Assembly (NCBI GenBank): GCA_913052635.1
Contig: CAJXDE010000010.1
Coordinates: 1-36,893 of the forward strand
Reading direction: 5' to 3'
Length of the DNA: 36,893 nt
DNA from: an uncultured Halieaceae bacterium
GTDB taxonomy: Bacteria > Pseudomonadota > Gammaproteobacteria > Pseudomonadales > Halieaceae
Numbering within the stretch: position 1 is the stretch's first letter; each line of letters begins with the position of its first letter. The notes beneath the pieces are model-generated. The model was given only the letters and a program-made list of their open reading frames with translations, made no database searches and was not told where the DNA came from. Below are positions 21,556 through 36,471 of this stretch, in pieces. A program made the translations under genes and the position numbers.

Positions 21556-23478
21556 TCAGCCGCGGGCCATCTTGATACGGCCCTTGGGCTTGGGCTGCTC
21601 CTCAAGGAACTTGAGTGCCCAGGCCTGAAACTCCGGCTGGCGCGGCGCGTCCAGCCCGGTCTCTTTCTTGCAGCGCTTTTTCAGCTCGGCAATGTCGCCA
21701 CCGCGGTCAAACATTTTGACCTTGCCGCGTTGCTTGGCCATCTTGGCGCGCAGCGCTTTGGTCTTTTTCTCATCAACCGTTTGGTCGGCATTCATCACCA
21801 CACCATAGCGCTTGGCGCCCTCGACCGATACCAAACCCGCCCGCACGTCGAACTCAACGCGCTCGGTTTCCCGCTTCAAGGGATCGCCACAGCCACCACC
21901 ACCCCAGGTGTTGAAGTAAAGAATGTCCCCGGCGTTAACGGTAATCCGGTCGCACTTACTGGGCATCATCTCTTCACTGCCATCGACACGCTTGAGAATC
22001 TTCTCCGAACGACGTCCCGGCAAGCCACCGTTAACACCCCACGGGTAGGTCAGCCAACGGTCATCGTGGATAGAGATGGTGCCCGGCTCCAGGAAGCAGT
22101 AGCCCATCCGCAGGCCGTTACCACCGCGGTTGTAGCCCGCACCACCGCTGTCAGTGATCGTCTCGTAAGCTTCGATACGCAGCGGGAAGTAACTCTCGAG
22201 GAACTCGTTTGGCACGTTGGTAAAGCTTGGCCACAGCGAGTGCCCGTCGGGCCCGTCACCCGAGGGTTTACCCGGAATCCCACCAAAGCCAATGGAGTAG
22301 AGCTGATACCACTCACCATTCTTGTCGTAGCCCGAGTACATGAAGTGCGGGCTGTCAGAGAAGCCAGCGCCCGCGAGGAAGTCGGGATCACCCTGGCCCA
22401 AAAGACCGCCCAAGACGTCGAAAATCCTACCCAAGGCGTGGGTGCGACACGAGAGTGCGGCGGGTTCACGCGGCTTGAGCAGCGTGCCTTCGGGAATCCG
22501 CACTTCCATCAGGTCATAGAAACCGTCGTTAAACATAATCTGGGGATCAAACACCATGATCATGTAAACGCCGCAGAACATCTTGAACATCTCTTCGTTG
22601 AGATAGAAATTGATCGAGCTGATCGACTGCGGATCTGTGCCGTCAAAGTCGAAGATGACTTTGTCTTTGTCACGCCACATCGAACACTTGATGCGATATG
22701 GCCCCATGCCCAGCCCGTCATCACAAATATAATCCTCAAAGTGCTGCTTTTTCGTCGGTACGGTGTCCTTAATCAACCGGCCCATAGCGCGCTTGTTACG
22801 GGCCAAAAGCTCGTCCAAGGCTGAGTAATACTCATCGTCACCAAAGCGCTCCGCCATCTCGATGACGCGCTTTTCAGCGGTCCGCATGGCGGCAACTAGG
22901 GCATTGAAGTCACTGCGATTCCAGGTTGGCATGCGGCTGTTATGCAGAATCAAATTCAGCACATCCGTCTGCAGCTCATCGTTTTTGAAGATCTTAAGAG
23001 GCGGCACGCGAATACCCTCCTCAAAAATCTCCCGCGCGTCAGTTGGCAGACTGCCCGGCACCTTACCGCCCACGTCCGTCATATGGCCAAACATGGCGGC
23101 GTAGGCAATCAGCCGGCCGTCCTTGAAGATCGGCCGCAGCAAAAGCCAATCGTTAATGTGGCTAATGGCGCCGTTACAGGCGTAGGGGTCGGTGGTCAGG
23201 AACAGGTCACCCTCTTCGATAGTGCCGTCGTAGGCCTCTTTGAAGCCGTGAATAAAGCTACCGAACTGGCCGACCACCATCTTGCCTTCCAAATTGGCGA
23301 TCATCGGGAACATATCGTTTTGCTCACGAATACCCGGTGACATTGCCGTTCGAAACACGACCGCATCCATCTCGTAGCGGGCGTTCATCATCGCGTTTTC
23401 GATGATGTCGAGGGTGATTGGGTCGATATCCTTGCGCTTGAATTTCTTGGTGTTGGTTTCAACGATTGTTGCAGACAT
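21556..23478 (-). CDS. Hydantoinase B/oxoprolinase family protein
   Basis: 640 aa; KDIDPITLDIIENAMMNARYEMDAVVFRTAMSPGIREQNDMFPMI...; DPYACNGAISHINDWLLLRPIF; GGSGYNRGG-like GGAGYNRGGNGLRMGY; TWGGGGCGDPLKRE. Confidence 0.96.
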   Translation of the reverse strand: MSATIVETNTKKFKRKDIDPITLDIIENAMMNARYEMDAVVFRTAMSPGIREQNDMFPMIANLEGKMVVGQFGSFIHGFKEAYDGTIEEGDLFLTTDPYACNGAISHINDWLLLRPIFKDGRLIAYAAMFGHMTDVGGKVPGSLPTDAREIFEEGIRVPPLKIFKNDELQTDVLNLILHNSRMPTWNRSDFNALVAAMRTAEKRVIEMAERFGDDEYYSALDELLARNKRAMGRLIKDTVPTKKQHFEDYICDDGLGMGPYRIKCSMWRDKDKVIFDFDGTDPQSISSINFYLNEEMFKMFCGVYMIMVFDPQIMFNDGFYDLMEVRIPEGTLLKPREPAALSCRTHALGRIFDVLGGLLGQGDPDFLAGAGFSDSPHFMYSGYDKNGEWYQLYSIGFGGIPGKPSGDGPDGHSLWPSFTNVPNEFLESYFPLRIEAYETITDSGGAGYNRGGNGLRMGYCFLEPGTISIHDDRWLTYPWGVNGGLPGRRSEKILKRVDGSEEMMPSKCDRITVNAGDILYFNTWGGGGCGDPLKRETERVEFDVRAGLVSVEGAKRYGVVMNADQTVDEKKTKALRAKMAKQRGKVKMFDRGGDIAELKKRCKKETGLDAPRQPEFQAWALKFLEEQPKPKGRIKMARG

Positions 23479-23494
23479 TGTTATCTCCCCTCGC

Positions 23495-25555
23495 TCAAGC
23501 TGACGGTGCTATCAGGATGTTGCCGAACTTGTCGACGTTGCCGGTATGACCGGACAGGATGACCGTGGTCGAATCCATCTCGAGTACGATCGCGGGTCCA
23601 TCGATTTTGTTACCGGCTTTCAGCTGATCCCGTCGGTAAAGGTTTGCTTCCATATTTTTGCCGTCCATGAAGACTTTTGACGTCCCGATCTTGGCGGCCG
23701 CGACCGGTGTGCGGCTGCCAGAGCCAGTCACTTTCTTCGCGTCGATTTCGGCGCTCTTGCCTTGCGCCACCGCACGGACATTCACAATTTCCTTGTCCGC
23801 ATCGAGCGCAAAGGTAAATAGCTGTCGATGCATGTCATCAAAAGGATCGCCAATTACCGACAAGCCCTTGGACTTCAGCTTCTTGAGGTCGAAGTCGACT
23901 GTCAGCGTGAGTCCTTGCCCCGAATAACGAATATCCGCCTGGTAGGTCACCGAACGATGTGCCTTGGGAACGCCTTCTTTTTCCAGCGTTTTGAGCGCCT
24001 TATTCGCCAGCTGTTGATAGGTTTTGGTCAGCTCGGAGGGCGAGATGTTGGCGAAACGCCGGATAAAGGTTCGCGACGCCTCGTCACGCACGCGCGTGGT
24101 CGCGTCCCCGTAAGCGCAGAGCACACCCGGACCAGGGGGAATGATCACCGGCCAGCTATTCATTAACTTACCGAGTGCGTTGGCGTGCAGAGGGCCCGCG
24201 CCGCCAAACCCGATCAGTGCGAAGTCGCGGGGGTCAAAACCCTGCTCCACTGAAACCAGTCGGAGTGCGCCGTACATGTTCTCGTTCACAATATCGATGA
24301 TGCCCGCAGCGGCGCGCTTCACTGAAATACCTAACGCGTCTGCAACCGGCTTGATCGCCTTTTCAGCGAGGTCCTTGCGAATTTCCATATCGCCACCCAG
24401 CCGCACTTCGCTGGGCAAGTAGCCAAGCACCACATTGGCGTCGGTTACGGTCGGCAGGTCGCCACCTTTGTTGTAGACAGCCGGTCCAGGTTCGGCGCCG
24501 GCACTTTCCGGACCCACACGTAATGCTCCCGTGAGCTCGGGCACGTGAGCGATCGAGCCGCCCCCGGCACCGACGGTGCGCACGTCGACCGAGGATGCTC
24601 TCACGGTCACGTCGCCAACGGTTGTCTCTCTCCGCAACTGTGCATTGCTGTCCTGCACCAGTGCCACATCGGTAGAGGTGCCGCCCATATCGAAGGTCAG
24701 CAGGTTTTCAAATCCCGCCTGTTTGGCGACCCAAACGGCACCGGATACACCACCAGCGGGCCCCGACATCAGCAGATTGACTGGCAGGGATTGGGCGACC
24801 TTGGCCGAGGCCATGCCCCCGTCAGAGCGGAGGATGTGAAGCTTCACGTCCTTCATTTTGGCTTTGAGTTTTCGCTCGAGGCTTTTCACGTACGCAGCAA
24901 CTTTAGGCCGGACGTAGGAGTTAGCCACCGTCGTAATCGTTCGCTCGTATTCCTGCATCTCTGGCACCACGTCGTAAGAGAGCGAGACCGGAATACCGGG
25001 TAGCACCTGCTTGGCGATTTTCTCGACTTCCTTTTCGTGGGCTGGGTTGGCGTAGGAATTCACCAGCGAGATCGTCAACGCCTCGATATTTTCTTTCTTG
25101 AGCCGTTTCAGCTCTCTGGTCAATGAAGTCTTATTCAGCTTTCGCACCACAGAGCCGTCGGCTCCCATGCGCTCGTCAGCCTCAATCGTGCACGAGAGCG
25201 GGGCAAGTGGTTGGCTCTTGTTGTAGATCACCCAACCACCCAGGCCGCCCGGCACGTAAGAGCGCGCGATCTGCAGTACCTGTCTATAGCCTTTAGTGGT
25301 CACCAATCCGACTTTAGCCCCGGTTCCGGTCAGCACCGTATTCGTCGCGACCGTGGTGCCGTGCATAACCTGCGCGATTTCAGAGGGGTCTACTCCGGCG
25401 TTGTCGCAGACCTTTGCAACACCGTTCATGACGCCGATCGATGAATCAGAGGGGGTACTTGGGACTTTCGCTGTGTGGATGGAACCCGATTTCTCATCAA
25501 CGAGAATCAGGTCGGTAAATGTGCCGCCGACGTCGACACCAAGACGATAAGGCAT
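23495..25555 (-). CDS. Hydantoinase A/oxoprolinase family protein
   Basis: 686 aa; MPYRLGVDVGGTFTDLILVDEKSG; HGTTVATNTVLTGTGAKVGLVTTKGY; NLLTFDMGGTSTDVALV; GFGGAGPLHA. Confidence 0.97.
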   Translation of the reverse strand: MPYRLGVDVGGTFTDLILVDEKSGSIHTAKVPSTPSDSSIGVMNGVAKVCDNAGVDPSEIAQVMHGTTVATNTVLTGTGAKVGLVTTKGYRQVLQIARSYVPGGLGGWVIYNKSQPLAPLSCTIEADERMGADGSVVRKLNKTSLTRELKRLKKENIEALTISLVNSYANPAHEKEVEKIAKQVLPGIPVSLSYDVVPEMQEYERTITTVANSYVRPKVAAYVKSLERKLKAKMKDVKLHILRSDGGMASAKVAQSLPVNLLMSGPAGGVSGAVWVAKQAGFENLLTFDMGGTSTDVALVQDSNAQLRRETTVGDVTVRASSVDVRTVGAGGGSIAHVPELTGALRVGPESAGAEPGPAVYNKGGDLPTVTDANVVLGYLPSEVRLGGDMEIRKDLAEKAIKPVADALGISVKRAAAGIIDIVNENMYGALRLVSVEQGFDPRDFALIGFGGAGPLHANALGKLMNSWPVIIPPGPGVLCAYGDATTRVRDEASRTFIRRFANISPSELTKTYQQLANKALKTLEKEGVPKAHRSVTYQADIRYSGQGLTLTVDFDLKKLKSKGLSVIGDPFDDMHRQLFTFALDADKEIVNVRAVAQGKSAEIDAKKVTGSGSRTPVAAAKIGTSKVFMDGKNMEANLYRRDQLKAGNKIDGPAIVLEMDSTTVILSGHTGNVDKFGNILIAPSA

Positions 25556-25647
25556 GATTGGCCTCCTCTTGTTATAGATCTTCTATTGATCGCAATGCGA
25601 GTCGCAGGGTTCAGAAAACTGCGAGTGCTCAGCGGCACTCAAAACAA

Positions 25648-25659
25648 TTGACCGGACAT
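25648..25659. promoter_or_regulatory. Putative GntR-type operator, site C
   Basis: TTGACCGGACAT (reverse complement ATGTCCGGTCAA, 11/12 to ATGTCCGKACAA), near the middle of the 25556-25754 divergent intergenic region. Confidence 0.55.
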
Positions 25660-25754
25660 TTGCTACAATTCCGCTTCCAATCCAAAGATGCACCAATCTG
25701 CAGACAGGTGCAAGGTATCATCCCTCTCACATCCGAGATTCGCTGGAGCCCACC

Positions 25755-26939
25755 ATGATGAAACCCCTCGCCGGCATTCGTGTACTGGCTATTGAGCAGT
25801 TTGGCGCGGGCCCCTATGGGTCGATGTATCTCGCCGAACTGGGAGCCGAGGTGATCAAGATCGAGAATCGCGCCACGGGCGGCGACCCATCGCGTCAGTC
25901 AGGGTCAGTTACCCTTGCCGATGACGACAGCGCCTACTTTCAGGCATTTAACCTCGCCAAAAAAAGCGTGACGCTGAATCTCAAAAGCGACGAGGGCCGC
26001 GCGCTGTTTCATGAACTGGTCAAAAAGAGCGACGTGGTCTGGAACAATCTGCGCGGCAGCCAGCCCGCGAAGATGGGGCTGACCTATGATGACCTCAAAG
26101 GCGTCAAGCCCAACATTATTTGCACACACATCTCGGCCTACGGACGGGATAACGACCGCGCTGATTGGCCGGGCTATGACTACCTGATGCAAGCCGAGTG
26201 CGGTTTTTTATCAGTGACCGGCGAGCCCGGTACGCCACCCTCCCGCTTTGGCTTGTCGATGATCGATTTCATGACCGGAGTCGTGGCGGCGCTGGGCTGC
26301 GTCTCGGCACTGTTGGCGCGACCCAACCAGGGCGGACGCGACGTGGATATCAGCCTGTTTGATGTGGCGCTACACCAGCTGACCTATCCCGGCACCTGGT
26401 ACCTCAACCACGGCATCGAGACGGGTCGCGTGGCGCGGTCGGCCCACCCCTACAACACGCCGGTGCAACTTTATAAAACCCGCGACGGCTGGATCTTCAT
26501 CATGTGCATGACAGACAAGTTTTGGCAGCTGCTGCTGGAACGCTCGGAGCACACAGAATTGGCAGATGATCCCCGCTTTAATTCCATAGCCGGGCGCGCG
26601 GAAAACCGCGATGCCTTGACCGAGGTTCTGGACGAGATCTTCCAGACACAAGACACCGACCACTGGTTCGAAAAGCTACAGACCTACATTCCCGTGGCGC
26701 CGGTGTTCGACTTACCCAACGCTTTAGACAATCCCTTCGTGGCCTCCATCGGTATGATGCAAACCATGACCCACCGCGAGTTCGGCGAGTATCGGGGCCT
26801 GAGCAATCCCATCAAGATCGATCAGCAGCGCCTGCAGACACATTGCGGCGCCGGCCTCGGGGCGGATAATCAGGAGATTCTCGGTGAGGAATTGGGCGTG
26901 GGAGATCTCGAGAATTTGGCCGCACGAGGGATTATCTAA
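25755..26939 (+). CDS. CoA-transferase family III (CaiB/BaiF-type)
   Basis: 394 aa MMKPLAGIRVLAIEQFGAGPYGSMYLAELGAEVIKIENRATGGDPSRQ...; putative catalytic Asp in FGLSMIDFMTGVVAALG. Confidence 0.95.
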   Translation: MMKPLAGIRVLAIEQFGAGPYGSMYLAELGAEVIKIENRATGGDPSRQSGSVTLADDDSAYFQAFNLAKKSVTLNLKSDEGRALFHELVKKSDVVWNNLRGSQPAKMGLTYDDLKGVKPNIICTHISAYGRDNDRADWPGYDYLMQAECGFLSVTGEPGTPPSRFGLSMIDFMTGVVAALGCVSALLARPNQGGRDVDISLFDVALHQLTYPGTWYLNHGIETGRVARSAHPYNTPVQLYKTRDGWIFIMCMTDKFWQLLLERSEHTELADDPRFNSIAGRAENRDALTEVLDEIFQTQDTDHWFEKLQTYIPVAPVFDLPNALDNPFVASIGMMQTMTHREFGEYRGLSNPIKIDQQRLQTHCGAGLGADNQEILGEELGVGDLENLAARGII

Positions 26940-26952
26940 GCACCACTGACTC

Positions 26953-27756
26953 TCAATGAGCCCCTAAGAAGTCGAAGAGGATCCTGCCGAAGGCAATCTT
27001 CTCTTCTTTGCCAGCCACCACGTGGGCGACATCATCCATGGTGACCCCCACCGAGTTTCTGAGCCCCTCCTCGAGAGGCTTGGTAGTCCGAGGCCCGGTG
27101 ATAATGTCTTCCCCCGCGTGAATCACCAGTGTCGGCGCCTCGATATCACCAAGGTGGGGCCGAATATCATGTCCCCGGCATGCTTGCACAAAGCGCAGGT
27201 GGGTTTGGATACGACCCTCGAGCGCACCCCATACACCGCCGCTACCGAGCAGCTTTTCGCGGTTGGCATTGTAGTAATCGGGCTTGAACGACAGGGAGGC
27301 TACCATCGACTGAAAGGCGTGGAATCCCGCGTGTTCGTGGATGTCACCAAAGGCCTGAAGGTGGTCGGAGAGCATGGGATCGGCCCAGGTCCAGCAACCC
27401 ATATTCACCATGCAGCGCACCAGATCAGGCCGCTTAACCGCTACCCACTGACCGATACACGCCCCAATGCCCACCAGCCCTACGAAGTACACCGACTTCA
27501 TGTTGAGGTGGTCCAAAAGGCCAATGATGTCGTCGGCAAACAGTTGCGTAGAGGGTTCCATCGAGTAGTCATCGATTGACTCACCGAGGCCCCGGTAATC
27601 AATGATGACGGTGGAGAACTGATCGGTCATGCCCCTCGCCAGATAATGATGCCGGCCGTGACAGAAGGTATCCCAGCCACCGATGTAAACGGCTGGCGGA
27701 CCATCACCATGCACCTCGTAGTACATGTCGTGTCCGTTGATCTGGGCAATAGGCAT
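26953..27756 (-). CDS. Alpha/beta hydrolase-fold protein with atypical nucleophile elbow
   Basis: 267 aa; MPIAQINGHDMYYEVHGDGPPAVYIGGW...VIIDYRGLGESIDDYS...VYFVGLVGIGACIGQWVAVKRPDLV...TLVIHAGEDIITGP...DDVAHVVAGKE. Confidence 0.85.
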   Translation of the reverse strand: MPIAQINGHDMYYEVHGDGPPAVYIGGWDTFCHGRHHYLARGMTDQFSTVIIDYRGLGESIDDYSMEPSTQLFADDIIGLLDHLNMKSVYFVGLVGIGACIGQWVAVKRPDLVRCMVNMGCWTWADPMLSDHLQAFGDIHEHAGFHAFQSMVASLSFKPDYYNANREKLLGSGGVWGALEGRIQTHLRFVQACRGHDIRPHLGDIEAPTLVIHAGEDIITGPRTTKPLEEGLRNSVGVTMDDVAHVVAGKEEKIAFGRILFDFLGAH

Positions 27757-27833
27757 GTTTGTTCTCCTAGCGGGTAAGCGAATTCATTGGTGTTTCGTTA
27801 AGTTGGCAGGCGCTGAGCGACCAAAGCGATGGC

Positions 27834-28451
27834 TCAGAGTCCATTGATATGTGCCAGCACGCTCTCCAGATCAGTGACATCGGCATAGCGTCTACCCACG
27901 TCGCGGAGGTTGCTCGCATGGGCCTCCTCGTCCTGATCACCACAGCAGTCAGCAGGGACGATGGTGCGGTAGCCGGCTGAGAAGCTGTCCACGATTGAGG
28001 CGCGCACACACCCCGAGGTCGTGCAACCAGTGATGATAGTGGTGTCGATACAATGCGTGACCAACCAAGGTTTGAGCGGCGTCTCATAAAAAATGGAGGG
28101 CGCCGTTTTAATAAACTGGAAGATGTAGTCATCGTCCCGGATGCGTGGGTCTAGCTCAGTGCAGGGATGCCCGTGGTAGAAGCTGCCGTCGTAGAGTGAG
28201 TCGATCTTCCAATAGGTCATTTCGTCAGGACCGCCCCAGGACACCGCGCAGGAAGCAACAGGAATACCCTTGGCCCTGCAGGCCGCGAGCAGTACCGCCG
28301 TGTTATCCACCGCACGTTGCACGTGGTCGCTACGGCCCAGTGGATTGCTGGCGTCGGTAAAGCCCTGCTGGAAATCGACCATCACGAGCGCTGGCCGCTC
28401 ACCAAATCCGATATCGCGCTGACCGTAGCCAGCCTCTGCAAATTTATCCAT
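27834..28451 (-). CDS. Isochorismatase-family cysteine hydrolase (N-carbamoylsarcosine amidase-like)
   Basis: 205 aa; PALVMVDFQQGFTD; FIKTAPSIFYETPL; ITGCTTSGCVRASIVDSFSAGY (Asp/Lys/Cys triad intact). Confidence 0.9.
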   Translation of the reverse strand: MDKFAEAGYGQRDIGFGERPALVMVDFQQGFTDASNPLGRSDHVQRAVDNTAVLLAACRAKGIPVASCAVSWGGPDEMTYWKIDSLYDGSFYHGHPCTELDPRIRDDDYIFQFIKTAPSIFYETPLKPWLVTHCIDTTIITGCTTSGCVRASIVDSFSAGYRTIVPADCCGDQDEEAHASNLRDVGRRYADVTDLESVLAHINGL

Positions 28452-30174: not shown

Positions 30175-30186
30175 ATGTCCGTACAA
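30175..30186. promoter_or_regulatory. Putative GntR-type operator, site E
   Basis: ATGTCCGTACAA, exact to ATGTCCGKACAA, about 30 nt upstream of ATG 30217. Confidence 0.6.
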
Positions 30187-30216
30187 TTAGGCTTCACCAG
30201 ATTTGAGGCCTCGTTC

Positions 30217-31062
30217 ATGTATGGCACACGCTCACTGGGCGCTAGCTTCGGCGCTGAAGTGCTGGAGTTCCAGCTTCCCGGGACACCCTCGCAGGAGGAC
30301 ATAACGGCAGTCCGGGAGCTGTGGGCGGAGCACAAACTGCTGCTTTTCCGAAATCAGTCCTTCGATGAGGCAACGCTCGTGGGTTTCAGTCGCCAGTTCG
30401 GCGACCTTGAGATTCACGTGAGAGAGGAGTACCTCTCCCCCGAACACCCCGAGATTCTTTATGTTTCCAATATGGAACAAGACGGGCGGCGCATCGGGAT
30501 TCTTTCCGATACCGAAGTGGGTTGGCACTACGATCAGATCTACCTACCCAAGCCTGCCGTGGGTTCTCTGCTCATGGCCGATACGCTCCCCCCGGAGGGC
30601 GGCAATACGGAATTCGCGGACATGTGTGCTGCGTGGGAAACCCTACCCGAGGCAACGCGTGAGAAGTTGGACGGCTGTCTGGCCAATCAGTCCTACGAGG
30701 CCTTTAATCAGGCTTACAGCGTACCCACCAACAACAAGCAAAAAGCGCGATCGCCGGATATCCATCATCCGATTGTGCGCACGCACCCGGTAACGGGAAG
30801 AAAAGCGCTTTATCTGTGCCCCGGCATGACGACCGAGATCGTGGGCTGGGATGCTGCCGAGAGTGCCGAGATGCTGGCCTTTCTCTTTGACTGGACCACC
30901 AAACCGGAGTTTGTTTACTCACACGCCTGGCAACCCGGTGATGCACTCATGTGGGACAACGCCTGCACGATGCACCGCAGAGATCCTTTTGATCCTGCGC
31001 ATGCGCGTTTGATGAAACGCACCACCATCCTGCCACCAGCCGACTTGGCGGTGCCGTTCTAA
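30217..31062 (+). CDS. TauD/TfdA-family Fe(II)/2-oxoglutarate dioxygenase
   Basis: Start chosen at internal Met of ORF 30175-31062: MYGTRSLGASFGAEVLEFQLPG...WHYDQIYLPKPAVGSLLMADTLPPEGGNTEFADM...HPIVRTHPVTGRKALYLCPG...GDALMWDNACTMHRRDPFDP; HxD...H facial triad. Confidence 0.92.
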   Translation: MYGTRSLGASFGAEVLEFQLPGTPSQEDITAVRELWAEHKLLLFRNQSFDEATLVGFSRQFGDLEIHVREEYLSPEHPEILYVSNMEQDGRRIGILSDTEVGWHYDQIYLPKPAVGSLLMADTLPPEGGNTEFADMCAAWETLPEATREKLDGCLANQSYEAFNQAYSVPTNNKQKARSPDIHHPIVRTHPVTGRKALYLCPGMTTEIVGWDAAESAEMLAFLFDWTTKPEFVYSHAWQPGDALMWDNACTMHRRDPFDPAHARLMKRTTILPPADLAVPF

Positions 31063-31114: not shown

Positions 31115-32677
31115 TTACTCCTCAGCATCGTTCTCAGGTAGCGCGGGAGGCTGACAGCCCGTCGCGCAGCACTGACCCGGCTGTTTTTGACGGTTCGGTG
31201 CCCCAGAAGCGCCGGTCTCTGCCACGCCGCGATCCAGCAATCGCTCCACCAACGAACGTCTCTCTTCGATGGGATACCGCCGATAGATCTCGCGCTTCAT
31301 CGCCTGAGGCGAGCCACCCCCGTGCAAGCTGATGACGGAGTACCAGCCACCTGTTGATGAGGCGGTGATATCCTCCATAAACCGGGCCACCTGCATCCGT
31401 TGGTCGTAAGGGATATCTGGGCGCCCCGCCAACACTGAGGCGAGGTCGCCGGAGGTTGCTGGGTTGTGGTCTTCGTCGGGCCCTGGCAAGGCCACGATCA
31501 ACCCGCCAGACACTTCGTGCGCAATGCGATGCATATCGTAAATTTGCGTCGCCAGCAGTAATTTACCGACGTTTGAGAACACGGGCTCCGGCATCCATGA
31601 CCCGCAGGGATCCTCAACGCCATACACCGACGCCGCCACACCACAAGCAAAAAAACCTTCCACCAGTTTGATGAGCTCGGCCATGCTGTCGCGCAAATGG
31701 GGGACGGTGTCCATATCGAGACCGTTGGCCTCTGTCATGAGAGAACCCGCGCCAATCAGTAAGTCTCCGAAACCGGCGCGTGCACCGATGCAACTGTGTC
31801 GGTGATGGTTGGCATAGGACGTCACCAGATGCTCGGTATAGTCATGCTCACCCGCAAAGAACACCTGATCCCAGGGCACCAGTACCTGATCAAAATGGCA
31901 CACAGCCGTACTTTGGCCGTACTTTGCGCTGAAATGCGCATCTGCCTCGCCGGGCCGGCCCGCTGGCCGCGAAATGATCGTGAGCCCTTTGGCATCGATG
32001 GGTACCGCACAGCAGACCGCGAAGTCGGCATCTTCCTTACGCATTGTCCGGCAGGGCATCACCAGTAGCTCGTGCATATATGGCCCACCGGTGACGATGG
32101 CCTTCACGCCTGAAATCACGATGCCATCAGCCCGCCGCTCGGTAATGTGCACGTAGCTGTCGGCGACCTGCTGGTCTCCCGGCCGCTTGCTGCGATCTCC
32201 CTTGCCGTCGGTCATGGCCACCCCGAGAGTCAGATCCTCATCCTGAACGCGGTGCAGATAGGACAGGAAGCGCTCGTGCTGCTCTCCCCCAGTGTTCTCT
32301 GTCATCTGCCAGGTGGCCTGATAAATCGCATTGAGCGCATCGTGGGTCAGATAACGCTGCGCACAACCACTCTCACGGCAGACCAGTCGCACTGCCTCCA
32401 ATTTGGAAAGCAGGTCCTCGCTGTGGCGATTGATGTGCAACATGCGGTTCACGGTCTTACCCGAAGTCGCCTGCTCGGCCAGCATTAACGCGCCGTACTC
32501 GGGTTTCTGCGCAAAATCGTAGGTCACACCGACCGCGCGCACACCAGGCTGTAGCCGCGGATCATCGGCAACGGATTCGACGCGGTCACCGTCGACATAC
32601 ACCGTTGGGCTGTACTCGCGCAGACTCTCTTCGTAATCGGCCGCGCTCATGATGCGACCACCGGCTTTCATCAACAT
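31115..32677 (-). CDS. 4-hydroxyphenylacetate 3-hydroxylase / 4-hydroxybutyryl-CoA dehydratase superfamily protein
   Basis: 520 aa; SAADYEESLREYSPTVYVDGDRVE...GKTVNRMLHINRHSEDLLSKLEAVRLVCRESGCAQRY...AMTDGKGDRSKRPGDQQVADSYVHITERRADGIVISGVKAIVTG...SLHGGGSPQAMKREIYRRY. Confidence 0.88.
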   Translation of the reverse strand: MLMKAGGRIMSAADYEESLREYSPTVYVDGDRVESVADDPRLQPGVRAVGVTYDFAQKPEYGALMLAEQATSGKTVNRMLHINRHSEDLLSKLEAVRLVCRESGCAQRYLTHDALNAIYQATWQMTENTGGEQHERFLSYLHRVQDEDLTLGVAMTDGKGDRSKRPGDQQVADSYVHITERRADGIVISGVKAIVTGGPYMHELLVMPCRTMRKEDADFAVCCAVPIDAKGLTIISRPAGRPGEADAHFSAKYGQSTAVCHFDQVLVPWDQVFFAGEHDYTEHLVTSYANHHRHSCIGARAGFGDLLIGAGSLMTEANGLDMDTVPHLRDSMAELIKLVEGFFACGVAASVYGVEDPCGSWMPEPVFSNVGKLLLATQIYDMHRIAHEVSGGLIVALPGPDEDHNPATSGDLASVLAGRPDIPYDQRMQVARFMEDITASSTGGWYSVISLHGGGSPQAMKREIYRRYPIEERRSLVERLLDRGVAETGASGAPNRQKQPGQCCATGCQPPALPENDAEE

Positions 32678-32697: not shown

Positions 32698-34116
32698 TCA
32701 GGCCGCCCTGTTGGCTTGTGTTCGCAGCAGCGCCGTCAACTCTGCTACGTCATTCATCTCGTCGAGGTTTAACATTGCACTCCATAACTGCTCTGCTTTA
32801 TCCGCTGAAATAGTGAGCGCACAGTTATCGAGAAATTTGGCCTTCACTTGCTCAGCGGAGAGTAGCTGCCCCTCCGCACCTCGATTTACCGCTTCGAAGT
32901 GCTCCAGCTCGGTACCGTCTGTTAGGGTGATTTTAACGCCGCCCGAGAAAGCATCGGGGTAGCGTGACCGGTCGTCATGGGTGCATTCGATCCGCTGCGC
33001 GAGCGACAGCACCTCGGTGTCCACTCGCGCAGCGTCTTCCAGATCAGCCAGCGTAAAGCGCCCTTTGCAAAGCGCGGTAGCCACTGCGTACGGCGCACTG
33101 AATTTCGCGTCGTACTCACTTTGCGGCGCTCGCTTGGCCTCAATCGGATCAACCACCACACCAAACTGGCGTTCATCAAGACCGATAGTGACCGACGCGA
33201 TCTTATCTGGCGTCAAACCGTGCTGCTCTCGCAAAACCAGTGCGGCGTCTACAGGTGCATGATTAAAGTGACAGATGGGATAGGGCTTGATGGCGACGGT
33301 GCGCAGTGCCCAGTCGCGGAATAGCTGGGAGGATACGGTCTCAGTGTCCACCGAGGTGCCCGGCGCGAACAGCGCATAAAACCCAAAGCGCCCTCCGTAT
33401 GCCTCGCCTGGACCCTGAAAACCGGCAACGCCCAACGCCGCGGCTTGCACAGCTGCAGAGGCTGCCCATCCTGGATGCAGTCGCTTAGTCCAACTGCCAT
33501 CATCCAAGAACGCCATGCTGCCACTGCTGAAACTGAGCGCCACACCCTGTGCACGCACCAACGCTTCACTGTTGGCCCCCATCATGCGTGCAGTGGCAAC
33601 GGTCGCGCCAAATACGCCAACAACACCTGTAGGGTGGAAGCCCACCTGCTGGAATACCCCGCCCGCCTGAGTGCCCAGCATGGCGTCGACTTCGATCGCC
33701 ATTAAGGTAGCAAGGAGGAGCTCTGCGCCACTCAGGCCGCGTTGCTCAGCCAGCGCCAGTGCTGCGGGGAAAGCACTGGCGGAGCAATGGACGACCGACG
33801 CCAGGTGGGTGTCGTCGTAGTCCAACCCATGCACCAGCAATCCGTTCATCAAAGCTGCGTCGCGCAGCGACACCGTCGCGGACTGGCCAATAATGGTCGA
33901 CACACCGTTGCTACCCAGCAAATTAAGCGAGTCCAGAGAGGTGTGCGCAAAATCGTAAGCGCGTGAGGCGAAGGCAATTCCGACGGCATCCGCCAAACAC
34001 AGCTTGAGGTAATCCCACACGTCTTGCGGAACCTGATCTTGCTGCAACGCAATTGCGCGATCAGCGATCGCGCGGCTCAACGGTGCGCTTTGGTGAGTGA
34101 GCGGTGATGCCTGCAT
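32698..34116 (-). CDS. MmgE/PrpD family protein
   Basis: Start at internal Met of ORF 32698-34158 (MQASPLTHQSAPLSRAIADRAI), preceded by GGAG; DYLKLCLADAVGIAFASRAYD; LLVHGLDYDDTHLASVVHCSASAFPAALALAE; GFHPTGVVGVFGATVATARMMG. Confidence 0.93.
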   Translation of the reverse strand: MQASPLTHQSAPLSRAIADRAIALQQDQVPQDVWDYLKLCLADAVGIAFASRAYDFAHTSLDSLNLLGSNGVSTIIGQSATVSLRDAALMNGLLVHGLDYDDTHLASVVHCSASAFPAALALAEQRGLSGAELLLATLMAIEVDAMLGTQAGGVFQQVGFHPTGVVGVFGATVATARMMGANSEALVRAQGVALSFSSGSMAFLDDGSWTKRLHPGWAASAAVQAAALGVAGFQGPGEAYGGRFGFYALFAPGTSVDTETVSSQLFRDWALRTVAIKPYPICHFNHAPVDAALVLREQHGLTPDKIASVTIGLDERQFGVVVDPIEAKRAPQSEYDAKFSAPYAVATALCKGRFTLADLEDAARVDTEVLSLAQRIECTHDDRSRYPDAFSGGVKITLTDGTELEHFEAVNRGAEGQLLSAEQVKAKFLDNCALTISADKAEQLWSAMLNLDEMNDVAELTALLRTQANRAA

Positions 34117-34130
34117 CAGGGACTCCAGAA

Positions 34131-34142
34131 ATGTCCGGACAT
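34131..34142. promoter_or_regulatory. Putative GntR-type operator, site F (perfect palindrome)
   Basis: ATGTCCGGACAT, perfect 12-bp palindrome, about 14 nt upstream of ATG 34116 of the MmgE/PrpD gene. Confidence 0.65.
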
Positions 34143-34192
34143 GATACACCAACCGCATGCGGATACCGACCGCCGAGCCGGCTATTGGCCTG

Positions 34193-35080
34193 TCAGCTCA
34201 ATAATGAGTCCGCCAACGCGAGGATACGCTGACTTTTATAAACAATCGGGTAGTCAATGAAATAACCGTCCAACTGGATGGAAGCCGAGCCCTCTGCCTC
34301 TGCAGCTTCGAAAGCCGCCACCACGGCGCGGGCGTAGGCAATCTCCTCGTCGGAGGGCGTAAATACCTGATGCGTTAGGGGGATCTGGGCGGGGTGGATA
34401 CAAAGTTTGCCGCCAAAGCCGAACTGCTTGCCGTGCTGGGCGGACTGCAAAAACCGCTCGTCATCTTTGATTTGCAACACTACCGTGTCGATCGGCGCTT
34501 CGAGATTGCCCAGACGCGCCGCATGAGACAGCTTCGCTCGCGCATAGGCCAAAACCGACTCATCCGCGTGCCATTCGTAATTCAGATCCAGCGTGTAGTC
34601 CCCGCCGCCAAATGCCATGCGCTTGATGCGACTATCGGCAGTGGCAATCTTCCTCGCTCCTTCAACACCTGCCGCCGTCTCGATAATGGGCATCAGGTCC
34701 AAGCTACCCACTGCCATACCCTGCGCCGTTTCGGCAGCGGCCAAGAGGTTTTCCAGCTGATTGAGACAGGCCCGCGACTCCACCTTTGGCAACACCACAC
34801 CATCGAGCCATGGCCCGACGGTGGCTTTGATGTCTTCAGCGCAATAAGGCGTATCGATACTGTTCACCCGGACGTAGTGCCGCGTGCCGCTGTTGGGGCG
34901 GGCGGTGAAAGCATCCACCACACACTGTCGCGCTGCGGGTTTTTCACTGATCGCCACGGCATCTTCTAGGTCCAGGATGACGGCATCGGCACCCACCTCA
35001 AAAACCTTTTCAACGCGCCGGGGATGGTTCGCGGGCGTGAACAGAAAACTGCGAATGGGCGTGAAATCTTCGGGGCTCAT
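34193..35080 (-). CDS. HpcH/HpaI aldolase / citrate lyase beta subunit (CitE-like) family protein
   Basis: 295 aa; IRSFLFTPANHPRRVEKVFEVGADAVILDLEDAVAISEKPAAR; YVRVNSIDTPYCAEDIK; VVLPKVES; LMPIIETAAGV; GGKLCIHPAQI. Confidence 0.94.
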   Translation of the reverse strand: MSPEDFTPIRSFLFTPANHPRRVEKVFEVGADAVILDLEDAVAISEKPAARQCVVDAFTARPNSGTRHYVRVNSIDTPYCAEDIKATVGPWLDGVVLPKVESRACLNQLENLLAAAETAQGMAVGSLDLMPIIETAAGVEGARKIATADSRIKRMAFGGGDYTLDLNYEWHADESVLAYARAKLSHAARLGNLEAPIDTVVLQIKDDERFLQSAQHGKQFGFGGKLCIHPAQIPLTHQVFTPSDEEIAYARAVVAAFEAAEAEGSASIQLDGYFIDYPIVYKSQRILALADSLLS

Positions 35081-35081
35081 A

Positions 35082-35885
35082 TCAGTTGTTCCAGGACCAA
35101 TGATCGGCGGTCTGCCAGCCGCGGGTGAATTCGAAGTTATAGCTGAAGTTACTCGCGGGATGTTCAGAGATAGACGCCTCGAAAATTCGCCCGCCTCTCC
35201 CTTGATAAAAACGACTTACGCTGAGCGAGGGCGAGCCCGGCTCGACTCCTAGGACTGCGGCTTTTTGCTCTGAAAGGACGCCCGCAGTGAGGCGAATCGT
35301 GATGTTCTCGATCGATTCCTTGAAGATCTCAGCAATCATCTCGTAAACCGGACGTGAACTCCCACCCAGCCGCTGGGCGATAGAGCCGTACTCGGGGATG
35401 ACATACACATTGGCCAGACAGATCGGCATGCCCTCATCGCCCAGCGTCCGCAAGCCCGAAATTTGCACCCACTGGTCTCCCACTTGACAGCCCAACTCTC
35501 TGGCTAAGGATTTGTCCGCCGTAATGCGCTCATCGGAGAGTATTCTAAAAATACTGCTGTCGGGATAACTGAAGAGTTCCGATGGCGAACGCACCATTTG
35601 CACGAACGCAGGAGAAGCCTCGGTGGAAAGCACCAGCGTGCCACGGCCCCGCTGCCGCTTAACGAGACCCATGTCCTCCAGCACACGTAACGCCTCGCGG
35701 ATCGTATGCCGGCTGGCGTCGAAGCGATCGATCAGCTCCAGTTCGCCGGGTAAAAAGGTGCCGACGGGAAACTTCCCATCTCGGATTCCAGCGAGCAAGG
35801 TGTCCGAGATCTGTCGGTACAGCGGCAGTCTGGATGAGCTCTGCGCGCCATCTCCCGGCCGCTTTTTTACTTGCTCAACTTGCAT
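35082..35885 (-). CDS. GntR-family transcriptional regulator with UTRA-like effector domain (HutC subfamily)
   Basis: Start at internal Met of ORF 35082-35924 (MQVEQVKKRPGD); LYRQISDTLLAGIRDGKFPVGTFLPGELELIDRFDASRHTIREALRVLEDMGLVKRQRGRGTLV followed by UTRA-like C-terminus. Confidence 0.92.
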   Translation of the reverse strand: MQVEQVKKRPGDGAQSSSRLPLYRQISDTLLAGIRDGKFPVGTFLPGELELIDRFDASRHTIREALRVLEDMGLVKRQRGRGTLVLSTEASPAFVQMVRSPSELFSYPDSSIFRILSDERITADKSLARELGCQVGDQWVQISGLRTLGDEGMPICLANVYVIPEYGSIAQRLGGSSRPVYEMIAEIFKESIENITIRLTAGVLSEQKAAVLGVEPGSPSLSVSRFYQGRGGRIFEASISEHPASNFSYNFEFTRGWQTADHWSWNN

Positions 35886-35912
35886 GACAGGCCTGAACCC
35901 CCCAGACTTGAT

Positions 35913-35924
35913 TTGTCCAGACAT
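35913..35924. promoter_or_regulatory. Putative GntR-type operator, site G (autoregulatory/divergent)
   Basis: TTGTCCAGACAT (reverse complement ATGTCTGGACAA, 11/12 to ATGTCCGKACAA), between the GntR start (35885, -) and MaoC start (35983, +). Confidence 0.6.
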
Positions 35925-35982: not shown

Positions 35983-36471
35983 ATGGCTAAAACCACTGCA
36001 AAGGCGCGCTACGCTCATCAAAGTGGCCGTCACTTTGAGGACTTCACCGTGGGAGATATCTATCACCACCTGCCAGGAAGGACGATATCGCAACACGACA
36101 ACGCCTGGTTCACCTTGCTGACAATGAATACCCACCCACTTCATTTTGATGAGGAGTACGCCGCAGAGACCGAGTTTGGTCGACCACTAGTCGCGAGCCC
36201 GCTCACGGTGGCGATCATCGTGGGCATGAGCGTATCGGATGTGAGTGAGGCCGCCATCGCCAATTTGGGCTGGAAAGAAATCAAATTGCCTGCTCCGGTC
36301 TTTCCGGGAGATACCCTTTACGCCAACACGGAGGTGCTAGACAAGCGTGAGTCGCGCTCGCGGCCCAATGCGGGCATCGTCAGCGTGCTGACTCGCGGTA
36401 TTAACCAGGACGACACCGAGGTGTGTGTCTTCGAACGTCAGGTCCTCATTCCCAAGCGCAACCCCGCCTAA
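35983..36471 (+). CDS. MaoC family dehydratase (mesaconyl-/itaconyl-CoA hydratase-like)
   Basis: Start at internal Met of ORF 35623-36471: MAKTTAKARYAHQSGRHFEDFTVGDIYHHLPGRTISQHDNAWFTLLTMNTHPLHFDEEYAAETEFGRPLVASPLT. Confidence 0.9.
   Translation: MAKTTAKARYAHQSGRHFEDFTVGDIYHHLPGRTISQHDNAWFTLLTMNTHPLHFDEEYAAETEFGRPLVASPLTVAIIVGMSVSDVSEAAIANLGWKEIKLPAPVFPGDTLYANTEVLDKRESRSRPNAGIVSVLTRGINQDDTEVCVFERQVLIPKRNPA

Follow-up and report, generated by a model that had tools for sequence, protein, structure and literature searches.

The DNA analysed here (the window: 36,893 nt from a contig of an uncultured Halieaceae bacterium) encodes a 520-aa flavoprotein of the HpaB/4-hydroxybutyryl-CoA dehydratase (4-BUDH) family, accompanied by the following genes:

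25755–26939, plus strand: class III CoA-transferase (52% identity to its counterpart in a gene cluster of the distant genome L078)
30175–31062, plus strand: TauD-family Fe/2-oxoglutarate dioxygenase, convergent with the flavoprotein gene (65% identity to its L078 counterpart)
31115–32677, minus strand: the flavoprotein; a real ORF, with its ATG at 32677
32698–34158, minus strand: MmgE/PrpD family protein, 20 bp upstream of the flavoprotein gene, same operon
34193–35080, minus strand: HpcH/HpaI–CitE family C–C lyase, same operon (under the RipC and CitE cut-offs)
35082–35924, minus strand: GntR/UTRA regulator, first gene of the operon
35983–36471, plus strand: divergent MaoC-type hydratase (RipB/Ich-like, under the cut-off; start inferred from an ATG)

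The flavoprotein gene, the only one of the HpaB family in the genome assembly (84% complete), is the last in a tight operon GntR–CitE–MmgE/PrpD–flavoprotein with gaps of 1, 34 and 20 bp. This operon is conserved across Luminiphilus, the source of the protein's nearest relatives, one of which is carried by strain HTCC2080. Purifying selection on the gene is evident, as synonymous sites are saturated between Luminiphilus species (pS 0.75–0.79) while pN is low (0.05–0.13).

Profile searches matched the protein to the Pfam domains HpaB_N (1.8e-85, 287.3 bits) and HpaB (5.6e-55, 186.1 bits), both above the gathering score, and left it far under the cut-offs of the NCBIfam HpaB equivalog models (135.6 vs 480.2 and 89 vs 885.2 bits). 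A sequence search of the PDB returned two 4-BUDHs, those of the archaeon Nitrosopumilus maritimus (6vjr, 6e-88) and of clostridial origin (1u8v, 1e-87), at 34–36% identity, compared with 3e-34 for the best HpaB. The AlphaFold model (pLDDT 85.7) likewise found its top structural match in 1u8v_A (E 8.7e-40; TM 0.86/0.91, the latter by target length), with HpaBs second. From this kinship we infer that FAD is bound as in 4-BUDH. With the HpaB two-component monooxygenases (2yyg), the protein shares the Pfam domains, the fold (TM 0.86 to 2yyj) and an equivalent of Arg100 (R108), but identity amounts to 22–25%. Among R100, Y104 and H142, which we take to be the HpaB active-site residues, Tyr104 and His142 are replaced by Ala114 and Val153, making a role as phenol hydroxylase unlikely.

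Homologues of the flavoprotein were collected into a clade of 32 sequences from Luminiphilus and other proteobacterial genomes, representing about a dozen genera at 62–98% identity. In a maximum-likelihood tree (LG+C20+F+G4), this clade received support of 100/100 on a stem of 1.07 and joined canonical 4-BUDH as its sister group at a node supported at 100/99. A third, Rhodococcus-type group branched outside both and the HpaBs lay further off, separate from the clade; long branches were flagged around the HpaB rows, so that the clade itself is firmer than its deep placement. Sequence, fold and tree thus agree with the original prediction that the protein stands closer to 4-BUDH than to HpaB, and the tree places the clade with the former instead of with the HpaB monooxygenases, the grouping that had been named as counter-evidence. 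The clade is a variant within a known superfamily. A literature search returned no description of it, which is weak evidence of novelty as subscription papers lay mostly outside the search.

The residues that set the clade apart from 4-BUDH map to these positions:

32351–32365, minus strand: motif CAQRY (C105–Y109), corresponding to C99-x3-C103; the first Cys is kept, the second is Tyr in 32/32 clade members
31778–31804, minus strand: motif HRHSCIGAR (H292–R300); the His ligand is kept, with Tyr296 changed to Cys, ligand Cys299 to Ala and Lys300 to Arg
31466–31471, minus strand: D403–H404 in a clade-invariant PGPDEDHNP motif that 4-BUDH lacks
31331–31333, minus strand: I449, replacing Glu455 of 4-BUDH by alignment
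31154–31171, minus strand: CCxxGC (C503, C504, C508) of the clade-specific C-terminal tail QPGQCCATGC

Presumably, the [4Fe-4S] cluster of 4-BUDH is held by C99, C103, H292 and C299, and we take E257, Y296, K300 and E455 to be catalytic or active-site residues. Alignment to 1u8v, the check proposed with the original prediction, upheld the loss of two of the four ligands, and with them two of the three cysteines: C99 (C105) and H292 (H292) are kept, C103 is Y109 and C299 is A299. Beyond the ligands, the clade replaces E257 by T or V, Y296 by C, K300 by R and E455 by I, and retains Q101, R102, T190 and H458 as well as the core motifs AMTDxKGDR and HGGGSP. Written out at 1u8v positions 99, 101, 102, 103, 190, 257, 292, 296, 299, 300, 455 and 458, the three groups read:

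Canonical 4-BUDH: C Q R C T E H Y C K E H
Clade: C Q R Y T (T/V) H C A R I H
Rhodococcus-type group: I L K E S E H A Y K L H

Because the same pattern recurs in 32 clade sequences, while all 17 canonical proteins (seven rows plus ten copies from the same bacterial family as the clade gene) keep every 4-BUDH residue, the substitutions are a real change fixed across the clade and no single-gene oddity. The alignment also supports the view that the canonical four-ligand site is broken in the clade and that the canonical cluster cannot form. What the clade has of 4-BUDH is the fold (1u8v_A), but neither the full ligand set nor the set E257/Y296/K300/E455. Judged by its defining ligands, it is not a 4-BUDH and, judged by signature residues, not an HpaB monooxygenase. 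It probably carries out chemistry other than that of 4-BUDH; the dehydration itself is unlikely, as the canonical cluster, E257, Y296 and E455 are all gone.

Residues were gained as well as lost, a side that the original prediction overlooked. C100, H291, C296, D381, H387, D403, H404 and D436 are invariant acquisitions of the clade, as is the C-terminal tail QP[GD]xCCxxGC, which is attached through a linker whose length varies and which 4-BUDH lacks. C296 and H292 are a single helical turn apart, with C296 on about the face once occupied by C299: on an ideal helix, the angles from H292 are 40 degrees for C296 and −20 degrees for the old ligand, and in the AlphaFold model a single helix (278–317) spans H292 and C296. 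The tail was disordered in two AlphaFold models (pLDDT below 50), the second of a short-linker member, a result that neither favours nor speaks against docking. Among the Halieaceae genomes searched, no long ORF outside the clade carried the motif near its end. We considered a general Halieaceae motif and rejected it, the other readable matches to the DNA pattern lying in short ORFs or away from the C-terminus, and a known domain, the only Pfam match being a sub-threshold one to Oxidored-like (E 0.31, 11.2 bits vs 24). The tail also occurs in a partial homologue encoded on a Mycolicibacterium plasmid, and a 45-aa ORF in L101 ends in the similar NPGRCCLQGCP.

Around the operon, Luminiphilus genomes also encode TauD, EamA, two isochorismatase-fold hydrolases, an alpha/beta hydrolase and a CoA-transferase, as well as MaoC, acyl-CoA dehydrogenase and hydantoinase-like genes. 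A single stretch of L078 unites CitE, isochorismatase, the clade gene, CoA-transferases, an HMGL-like lyase, TauD (65%), PrpD (43%), GntR and acyl-CoA dehydrogenase (67%). Outside Luminiphilus and L078, CoA-type neighbours are mostly absent; of the 13 non-Luminiphilus loci, eight have a homologous TetR gene next to the clade gene and eight an isochorismatase-like gene. The context suggestive of an acyl-CoA substrate is therefore not general. At three loci (L061, L062 and L064), the clade gene with its TetR and isochorismatase-like partners adjoins the gene of an AMP-forming acyl-CoA synthetase; nearby are genes for lipoyl-domain proteins like those of the pyruvate dehydrogenase complex.

Drawing on fold prediction, sequence changes, conservation and gene context, we infer a mode of working without the canonical cluster. 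The reading we favour, tentatively and at a little short of an even chance, is a cluster-independent flavin enzyme that would catalyse an isomerisation or elimination on a small acyl-CoA or carboxylic acid, within a catabolic route ending in CitE-type cleavage. In this scheme, the base that removes a proton adjacent to the carbonyl would be the kept His292, perhaps acting together with the new Cys296, and the acceptor of electrons or hydride would be FAD; the outcome would be double-bond migration or elimination and not the radical dehydration of 4-BUDH. In Luminiphilus, the enzyme might feed a route with CoA-transferase, acyl-CoA dehydrogenase, MaoC and MmgE/PrpD steps that ends at the CitE-type C–C lyase. 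By its description, a purely functional precedent for cluster-free C4 elimination is BbuA, a flavoenzyme with a similar predicted structure that eliminates trimethylamine from gamma-butyrobetainyl-CoA, a C4 elimination from a CoA thioester; it is encoded beside class III CoA-transferases, but is a predicted acyl-CoA dehydrogenase with about 10% identity to 4-BUDH (PMC8364193). Of the proposed 'dehydratase/isomerase', the kinship with 4-BUDH stands, but the replacement of Glu257, Tyr296 and Glu455 in addition to the ligands weakens the word dehydratase.

The label 'cluster-free' goes further than the loss of the canonical four-ligand site supports: in view of what the clade keeps (C105, H292) and gains (the invariant C296 and a tail with three cysteines), a relocated metal site was considered. 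Here, C105, H292 and C296, perhaps with C503, C504 and C508, would hold a rearranged Fe-S cluster or other metal near the flavin. The invariance of all six residues in the clade, the absence of C296 and tail from 4-BUDH, the placement of C296 near H292 on one model helix and the confinement of the long-ORF tail motif to the clade among the Halieaceae genomes searched all suggest that the extra cysteines may bind metal; yet the tail is disordered in both models behind a linker of variable length, and conserved cysteines could instead be catalytic or redox-active. We consider a moved site fairly unlikely. Quite unlikely, too, is a rebuilt site in which a C105/H292/C296 core and a mobile CCxxGC tail docking at the flavin would create either a new metal centre, Fe-S or otherwise, or a thiol relay with redox activity, for a reaction new to the superfamily.

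The suggestion of a new oxygenase gained no positive support. As the oxygenase component of a two-component flavin monooxygenase, the protein would receive reduced flavin from an unlinked reductase. Its HpaB domains fit such a role, and two Flavin_Reduct genes indeed lie elsewhere in the genome, away from the window. The window itself contains no HpaC-type flavin reductase gene, as had been noted, and in none of 16 loci (the window and 15 related ones) did any gene resemble either Flavin_Reduct gene, a search that a distant reductase could escape. Catabolic or detoxifying oxygenases often sit beside TetR regulators, as the clade gene often does, but with Tyr104 and His142 gone despite the kept Arg100, and with the tree setting the clade apart from HpaB, we regard this reading as unlikely. 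Scarcely credible is a true 4-BUDH whose ligand loss reflects an alignment or assembly error: fold and 34% identity would fit, but assemblies of about a dozen genera, independent of one another, share these substitutions, and canonical copies of the same family align without trouble.

Ligand loss was also seen in the Rhodococcus-type group, a set of 4-BUDH-like proteins without Cys ligands:

L087, 5995–7392: Rhodococcus plasmid
L088, 5947–7353: Rhodococcus plasmid
L025, 7845–9377: acidobacterium

Like the clade, these proteins (27–29% identity) keep H292 and H458 and cannot form the canonical cluster; unlike it, they keep E257 and K300, have lost C99 and lack C296 and the tail. The natural series of canonical enzyme, clade and Rhodococcus-type group offers a probe of what the cluster is for and of how a flavin enzyme manages without it. 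4-BUDH serves as the marker enzyme for two cycles of archaeal CO2 fixation, and homologues readily receive its name on similarity alone; because the clade cannot carry the canonical cluster, such annotations need a ligand check. The name 4-hydroxybutyryl-CoA dehydratase in the annotation of the L088 protein is likely wrong.

Across 57 Luminiphilus genomes, the clade gene occurred in 24 and canonical 4-BUDH in 12, with both in none (Fisher p 6e-4 for exclusivity, ignoring kinship and incomplete genomes). Functional replacement of the canonical enzyme by the clade gene was rejected, the examined canonical copies sitting in unrelated contexts. Elsewhere in the window (21556–28451), a hydantoinase B/A pair (caprolactamase-like, under the cut-off) lies near an isochorismatase-fold protein (27834–28451) that carries TSGCVR and presumably resembles N-carbamoylsarcosine or maleamate amidases; this region is possibly a set for lactam, imide or hydantoin breakdown.
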